Positions 32,365 through 32,989 of a DNA stretch of 32,989 nucleotides are shown piece after piece (the stretch's first letter is position 1; the number at the start of each line of letters is the position of its first letter). A program made the position numbers and the translations under genes. Origin of the DNA: Candidatus Adiutrix sp. (GTDB lineage: Bacteria > Desulfobacterota > Desulfarculia > Adiutricales > Adiutricaceae); contig JAISJK010000058.1 of assembly GCA_031261565.1 (NCBI GenBank), forward strand, positions 1 through 32,989, read 5' to 3'. The notes below the pieces were generated by a model, which saw only the letters and a program-made list of their open reading frames with translations, searched no databases and was not told the DNA's origin.

Positions 32365-32393
32365 TTGACTTTTATTCGCTATTTTGATTCAAT
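32365..32393 (+). promoter_or_regulatory. possible sigma-70 promoter for the structured RNA
   Basis: TTGACT-N17-TTCAAT; the -10 is weak. Confidence 0.35.
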
Positions 32394-32399
32394 CTAACC

Positions 32400-32682
32400 G
32401 GGTTCTGATAAAACCTACAAGCGGTCGCACGCTCGGAGCCGTGCCTTTTTGCGCCCAATGGAAACTGGCACGGCCGGGTGTGGACTGAATATAAAACCCT
32501 CCGGAAATATGTCCGCAGTCTTGTAACTGTTATCAGCGCCCGGCCTCTATATTTTTGAGGCCACCAAAGCACTTGAGGGCGCTCAGTGGTAACTTCACAC
32601 CCGTTCCGGCCTTGCGACCGCTTTTCTAAAATAAGATTCATAGACCAGGAAGCCCCTCAGCGTTCCAGCGTGAGGGGTTTTT
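32400..32682 (+). ncRNA. unassigned highly structured noncoding RNA candidate (core 32419-32623) plus terminator
   Basis: Nested stems: 32419-32429/32613-32623 (11 bp), 32438-32445/32467-32474 (8 bp), 32475-32482/32596-32603 (8 bp), 32483-32487/32516-32520 (5 bp), 32535-32541/32577-32583 (7 bp) extended by 32529-32532/32590-32593, 32542-32547/32557-32562 (6 bp). No conserved protein recognised; strong terminator follows. Confidence 0.6.
32653..32682 (+). terminator. Rho-independent terminator 1
   Basis: CCCCTCA...TGAGGGG followed by TTTTT. Confidence 0.85.
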
Positions 32683-32692
32683 ATATTTTTTC

Positions 32693-32777: not shown

Positions 32778-32989
32778 ATGAAGAAATCACATTTTTGGCT
32801 TGGCCTGGCCCTGGCGGGGGCTTTAGGCTTGCAACCAGTGGCGGCTATGGCTGAAACCATTACAGGTGGAGGCGGATGCTCGGGCGCGATTGAGAGTCAG
32901 ATTGATGGCACATTCGAGGGGTGGAGTGGTGAAACGGTTTTTAAGCTCACGAATGGTCAGATTTGGCAGCAATCCTCTTACGCCTATAC
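32778..32989 (+). CDS. secreted small hypothetical protein (partial at window end)
   Basis: SD caggag then MKKSHFWLGLALAGALGLQPVAAMAETITGGGGCSGAIESQIDGTFEGWSGETVFKLTNGQIWQQSSYAYT...; signal peptide followed by a recurring 'IxGxFxGWxGxTxxKLxNGQIWQQ' domain. Confidence 0.75.
   Translation, partial: MKKSHFWLGLALAGALGLQPVAAMAETITGGGGCSGAIESQIDGTFEGWSGETVFKLTNGQIWQQSSYAY

Follow-up and report, generated by a model that had tools for sequence, protein, structure and literature searches.

Near one end of the stretch of DNA analysed here (the window, 32,989 nt), a first-pass annotation had drawn a complex structured RNA and offered it as unassigned, new or riboswitch-like. We asked what kind of RNA this locus encodes and what it might act on. 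By its nearest protein relatives, the host is a termite-gut Candidatus Adiutrix-like member of the Desulfobacterota (assembly of 2.24 Mb in 139 contigs, 95% complete), in whose genome we found seven copies of the element, the one in the window and six others with 77-89% identity.

Architecture and family assignment of the window element

The minimum free energy of positions 32415-32630 was -95 kcal/mol, whereas shuffled sequences averaged -65.4 (z = -7.1; 0 of 200 shuffles as low); the structured RNA claimed earlier is thus real. The element is a real non-coding RNA; a protein-coding reading was rejected because the frames across it are not conserved between copies. Its parts are as follows.

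32365-32393, plus strand: promoter, with -35 TTGACT (32365-32370), a 17-nt spacer and -10 TTCAAT (32388-32393)
32401-32415, plus strand: 5' hairpin GGTT-CTGATAA-AACC (stem also written GGTA/TACC), the 7-nt loop of which (32405-32411) is partner site 1 (a1-like)
32416-32421, plus strand: partner site 2 (b1-like), TACAAG, complementary to the P4 loop
32419-32429 (5' strand) and 32613-32623 (3' strand), plus strand: outer closing stem, an inverted repeat
32427-32450, plus strand: early intrinsic-terminator-like hairpin GCACG-CTCGGAGC-CGTGC followed by CTTTTT, conserved in the copies
32438-32474, plus strand: side hairpin GCCGTGCC/GGCACGGC, 96% paired in a 9-sequence alignment
32472-32553, plus strand: C4-like core, the match to positions 1-87 of the RF02221 (sRNA-Xcc1) model (50.1 bits, E 5.7e-8)
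32474-32481 and 32536-32543, plus strand: P1, CCGGGTGT/GCGCCCGG, 100% paired in 9 sequences
32482-32514, plus strand: P2, GGAC/GTCC; inside it lie the conserved internal loop GAATAnAAnACC..GGAAATA and mini-hairpin P3
32516-32529, plus strand: P4 hairpin, CAG/CTG, the loop of which is guide segment b', CTTGTA (32520-32525)
32530-32536, plus strand: TTATCAG, guide segment a', which joins P4 to the 3' strand of P1
32542-32562, plus strand: hairpin P5, GGCCTC/GAGGCC, overlapping P1 on its 3' strand; every copy has this hairpin, with loop changes
32650-32690, plus strand: final intrinsic terminator, CCCCTCA..TGAGGGG and a T-run, which ends the RNA; the same hairpin class follows the copies L002-L005
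32693-32728, plus strand: second strong terminator (13 pairs, T7), preceding the next gene (32778)

Most of what had been drawn by eye held, namely the 11-bp closing stem AAGCGGTCGCA/TGCGACCGCTT (32419-32429/32613-32623), the 8-bp side hairpin (32438-32445/32467-32474) and the strong terminator (32650-32690). The 8-bp match between CGGGTGTG and CACACCCG exists (32475-32482/32596-32603), but the internal stem drawn from it does not stand, CACACCCG not being conserved in L003, L004, L006 and L007. An alternative partner of CCGGGTGT, GCGCCCGG (32536-32543), pairs with it in 9/9 sequences of the alignment of relatives and is the true one instead of CACACCCG. The promoter-like sequence went unreported by a simple scan, yet it lies in the same place in all seven genomic copies. 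Overlooked were the longest inverted repeat of the region (32398-32421/32520-32543, 24 nt, 79%) and the early terminator at 32427-32450, with which the side hairpin at 32438-32474 is predicted to compete.

The promoter keeps its position and hexamers in all seven copies while the farther flanks diverge; the -10 hexamer, TTCAAT in the window, is TTTAAT or TTTACT in most others. The stem of the 5' hairpin is kept in 9/9 sequences with a two-sided change from A-U to U-A. The outer closing stem shows wobbles and changes across the other copies and has diverged in L007, which also lacks the conserved 3' part. Each copy has its own promoter and early terminator, and the copies align from the promoter (TTGACT-17 nt-TTTAAT type) through the core, with unrelated flanks except in L002. 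They sit among ordinary chromosomal genes, with no prophage genes seen adjacent. L002 (contig C92) and the window (contig C88, 32200-32989) have an aminotransferase gene end and the RNA element in common (89.6% identity), after which the next gene diverges; the P4 loop and its partner are changed, and the two may well be strain variants of one locus within the assembly. The next gene in the window (32778-32989) is a secreted-protein gene of which the contig end leaves only the start; it has no family match, and its signal peptide resembles that of a porin-like gene in the same place in L002.

With the curated Rfam cut-offs, no family matched anywhere in the window. Scanning the region alone, we obtained a match to the whole RF02221 model (positions 1-87; 50.1 bits, E = 5.7e-8), 2.9 bits short of the gathering cut-off of 53. 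Members from the same genus and class score 53.4-79.1 bits, above that cut-off, and the consensus P1-P4 structure is present, with P1, P2 and P4 100% paired in nine relatives. The RNA can thus no longer be called unassigned or new. RF02221 was described as sRNA-Xcc1, a Xanthomonas campestris RNA found by Northern and RACE (PMC2996969). In agreement with the first-pass annotation, tmRNA, SRP RNA, RNase P RNA and 6S models gave zero matches; these readings, like those of a riboswitch or ribozyme, have no Rfam support, and a minus-strand Twister-sister score of 22.8 bits (cut-off 34) was taken as chance. Neither the C4 model RF01695 (even at E <= 10) nor the isrK model RF01394 matched the window copy.

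Guide segments, their partners and the search for a target

The core segments that differ most between the copies are the P4 loop (CTTGTA in the window) and the strand following P4 (TTATCAG). In 7/7 copies, with sequences differing among them, both segments are complementary to the two-part 5' site of the same copy (CTGATAA..TACAAG, 32405-32421, in the window). This own-partner complementarity amounts to 90 in the seven copies against 51.7 +/- 7.2 in permuted pairings (0 of 20000 reach the observed value) and to 239 against 126.5 +/- 8.9 over 17 elements, with segments cut by hand under one rule for all copies and permutations. The first helix, between the hairpin loop 32405-32411 and 32530-32536, is 98% paired in the 9-sequence alignment, with two-sided changes at 4 of 6 pairs. 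The guides of the seven copies are mutually orthogonal; own pairs had duplex energies between -11.9 and -20.3 kcal/mol in a 7x7 matrix, whereas all others lay between -2.4 and -9.5. The window copy carries one of the features of C4-type RNAs, a'/b' guides complementary to a duplicated bipartite 5' partner (a1/b1).

We then considered possible targets. The a2/b2 site found at the ribosome-binding site of a downstream antirepressor in phages and same-genus relatives is absent from the window, and no Bro-N or KilA-N antirepressor gene was found in the 95% complete host assembly. The gene at 32778 was rejected as a linked target, having no partner site and no Pfam or PHROG match, as was an association with SymE as in Xanthomonas, there being no SymE in the genome. 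A genome-wide search with the window guide, one of the seven, for its bipartite target returned a single further exact site, inside a CODH/ACS-like coding region; because of this position, we count no target as found for this guide.

The RNAs could instead have been taken over by the host to control its own mRNAs in trans, a role proposed for C4-derived sRNAs of Acinetobacter baumannii (PMC5320573). Their location between ordinary chromosomal genes without adjacent prophage genes would suit such a role, and most P4 loops begin with CU, which could pair with the AG of a Shine-Dalgarno sequence. The sole exact outside match to the window's bipartite target, however, lies inside a coding region, and the fast divergence of guides between near-identical copies is ill suited to conserved host targets. 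We therefore consider this explanation unlikely. Still less probable, in our assessment, is that the copies are remnants of prophages, control regions left over from decayed antirepressor operons and now without function. Although the two main antirepressor families are absent from the genome and L007 lacks the conserved 3' part, none of the seven copies has lost its promoter, its early terminator or its guide-partner pairing, and the pairing is kept by compensating changes where decay would break it.

RF02221-type modules in phages and related bacteria

A BLASTN search with the RF02221 consensus recovered phage and prophage copies adjoining genes named ant, KilA-N, ORF6N and BRO. We also scanned IMG/VR with the conserved internal-loop pattern alone (AATACAATACY N3-9 GGRAATA), which is blind to both genes and complementarity, and obtained at least 78 loci. 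In the phage members, the P4 loop and the joining strand pair twice, with a 5' site following the promoter and with the Shine-Dalgarno region of the next gene. Among the matches listed, at least 12 complementary bases were found with the own 5' site in 85% of 78 loci versus 22% when swapped, and with the own downstream Shine-Dalgarno site in 85% versus 18%; 68 of these 78 have both sites (at least 11 bases each), and a T-run separates the 5' partner from the core in every one. In these loci the next gene is nearly always an antirepressor. Downstream protein domains, 68 among the matches listed, included Bro-N (23), KilA-N (14), P22_AR_N (11), Rha (9), AntA (4) and ORF6N (3), which places six antirepressor or phage-regulator families under one kind of RNA leader. 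In three loci (L145, L147 and L173) the guides diverge though the remainder is nearly identical. A separate case is a Nitratidesulfovibrio plasmid (L267:1482-2229), where the full RNA module with both partner sites precedes a 203-aa protein of no assigned family, followed by an IS605 OrfB (TnpB-type) gene; the target there is not an antirepressor.

One prophage of E. coli E2855 (L145:1962-3108) allowed us to compare this type directly with C4. By Rfam, isrK and C4 lie before rha and, about 0.9 kb on, RF02221 lies before ORF6N, so that the prophage contains two parallel RNA-controlled antirepressor units. Reading the sequence, the C4 loop CCTTGATT is complementary to AATCAAGG, located at the Shine-Dalgarno site of rha, and the C4 joining strand GTGAGAA pairs with an upstream TTCTCAC, the motif also held in the isrK hairpin loop. 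The a'/b' topology of the neighbouring RF02221 is identical to that of C4. Given this shared C4/isrK topology, the reading that fits RF02221 best is that of a second C4-type RNA class, equipped with an IsrK-like 5' part of its own. We found no such statement in the open-access papers searched, which does not in itself prove novelty.

Intermediate forms connect the window copy to the phage modules. A viral contig (L273) combines a window-type core (56.9 bits) with both partner sites and an AntA antirepressor, and two same-genus loci (L110 and L120) carry both partner sites 5' of a Rha gene, each a complete Rha-linked module. The 5' domain of L110 (GAGCGGTCGCACACCCGC..GTGCTTTTTTT) is common to the window (AAGCGGTCGCACGCTCGG..GTGCCTTTTT), and likewise that of L120. 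BLASTN of the whole element against phages and plasmids gave zero matches, and the link to phages came solely through the RF02221 core; a covariance model of the phage 5' module, with 3 consensus pairs, matched the Adiutrix 5' domain weakly (E 0.16-0.33). What computation establishes here is the homology of the core, the co-variation of guides with their partners, the architecture in phages and the gene context there.

Same-genus relatives hold more copies, some above the RF02221 cut-off, and one genome has 23. On a 133.8-kb contig (G003 contig 3, L131:5900-7380), six RF02221-like cores with differing guide segments stand in tandem at a spacing of about 153 nt, which looks like a multi-guide array, followed by a separate promoter-driven copy directly 5' of a 149-aa ORF. 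At seven loci of G003 (L104, L112, L118, L121, L125, L131 and L132), RF02221-like elements lie directly 5' of proteins of 110-152 aa without a convincing Pfam or PHROG match, and at several the Shine-Dalgarno site is inside a GCCTCC/GGAGGC hairpin. These proteins may form an effector family not described before and governed by the same kind of RNA.

Guide and partner could also form an internal helix of a purely cis-acting, pseudoknotted RNA, with a ligand- or protein-binding fold of the riboswitch or scaffold kind. The only partner found for the window copies is indeed in the same RNA, and the strongly conserved internal loop of RF02221-type RNAs, AAUACAAUACC...GGRAAUA, is left unaccounted for by antisense pairing; this loop may be a protein- or RNase-binding site. 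Phage guides, however, pair with two separate places, the 5' leader and the Shine-Dalgarno site, and guide divergence in the near-identical L145, L147 and L173 suits specificity over a fixed fold, which makes this reading quite improbable. Because of the covariation and gene context, the element is better described as an antisense RNA of the phage C4 type than as the ligand sensor implied by the earlier term riboswitch-like. An integron cassette or mobile repeat serving DNA recombination, brought to mind by sRNA-Xcc1 in integron cassettes (PMC12444791), by the multiple dispersed copies and by the terminal inverted repeats, is very improbable and was rejected, since the integron integrase (TIGR02249) has no match over cut-off in this 95% complete assembly and the homology between copies begins at the promoter and continues to the terminator, where no attC-like flank common to them was seen.

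Proposed mode of action and comparison with known systems

Taking together the pairing, the phage architecture and the same-genus Rha-linked module, we read the window copy as an orphan C4-type antisense module without an antirepressor; its architecture and kinship are well supported. We put at roughly 0.72 the probability that the element is such an orphan module of the phage C4/IsrK type, with an RF02221-family core and immunity-type action in trans. Its expression, trans action, targets and advantage to the host are what we infer. Transcription would start near 32400 from the single promoter. Part of the transcripts would stop near 32450, giving a short, IsrK-like transcript, about 50 nt long and with the two-part partner site on it; read-through would yield an RNA of about 290 nt ending near 32690, which adds the C4-like core. 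The core would display two short guides, b' in the P4 loop and a' beside P4. Phage guides of this kind are complementary to the ribosome-binding region of the neighbouring antirepressor gene and would block its translation, while the 5' partner copy would compete for the guides and therefore set or relieve repression. This partner could also pair with the guide in cis and simply occupy it. In trans, the core would repress mRNAs that have the matching two-part sequence where ribosomes bind, as a rule those of phage antirepressors, and the seven orthogonal RNAs may be domesticated immunity-type RNAs aimed at the antirepressor mRNAs of phages that share their code.

An immunity function of the orphan set is attractive but unproven. 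Its broadest form, in which orphan, orthogonal and fast-diverging guides are an RNA barrier against antirepressor phages and RF02221 is a second, more elaborate C4/IsrK-type lysogeny-switch class across proteobacterial and desulfobacterial phages, is tentative and in our judgement somewhat short of an even chance. The main result is the reinterpretation of RF02221 itself. The family has long been annotated as a Xanthomonas virulence sRNA, and reports now place it in genomic islands, vesicles and integrons, with no mode of action known. It gains here one that is concrete and open to test: as antisense RNAs, its members would control the translation of antirepressors through a guide code that can be read. 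Sequence alone could then predict antirepressor immunity, that is, which prophage RNA silences which incoming phage, and a gut symbiont has accumulated several orthogonal copies. Caution is also due with target predictions that handle RF02221 members as ordinary trans sRNAs.

In comparison with known systems, the window element shares with sRNA-Xcc1 the 87-position core with P1, P2 and the AAUACAAUACC internal loop, tetraloop P3, P4 and J4/1. The RF02221 model spans this core alone, without the 5' partner, early terminator, side hairpin and outer stem of the window element, and in the searchable literature sRNA-Xcc1 is treated as an sRNA of virulence or of integrons, for which no antisense partner is described.

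In C4 of P1 and P7 (RF01695; a1/b1 target RF03163), the ribosome-binding site is blocked by b' and specificity comes from a'; the RNA functions in lysogeny and in immunity to superinfection (PMC5320573). Shared with C4 are the closing stem P1, the two inner hairpins, a b' guide located in the second loop and directed at the ribosome-binding site, an a' guide located in the joining strand and directed at a position farther upstream, and the duplicate a1/b1 site 5' of the RNA; phage members of the RF02221 type also share the antirepressor downstream. Unlike C4, which has a plain hairpin, the window type has a conserved internal loop in P2/P3, and the window copy has neither a downstream target nor a match to the C4 covariance model.

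In Gifsy-1, a short IsrK RNA produced by early termination switches on, in trans, translation of the read-through antirepressor mRNA (PMC4825925). IsrK (RF01394) comes from the promoter of the antirepressor mRNA and has its partner sequences in a hairpin loop. A comparable short terminated RNA is predicted for the present type, and in the window the early terminator (32427-32450) lies 3' of the partner sites (32405-32421); the sequence is distinct and the isrK model has no match. Finally, Acinetobacter baumannii has orphan C4-like sRNAs, for which trans regulation of host mRNAs was proposed (PMC5320573). The Group 1 sRNAs among them resemble the Adiutrix set in their many stand-alone chromosomal copies and variable guide, but they match RF01695, whereas the Adiutrix copies are of the RF02221 type and retain the 5' partner site and the early terminator.
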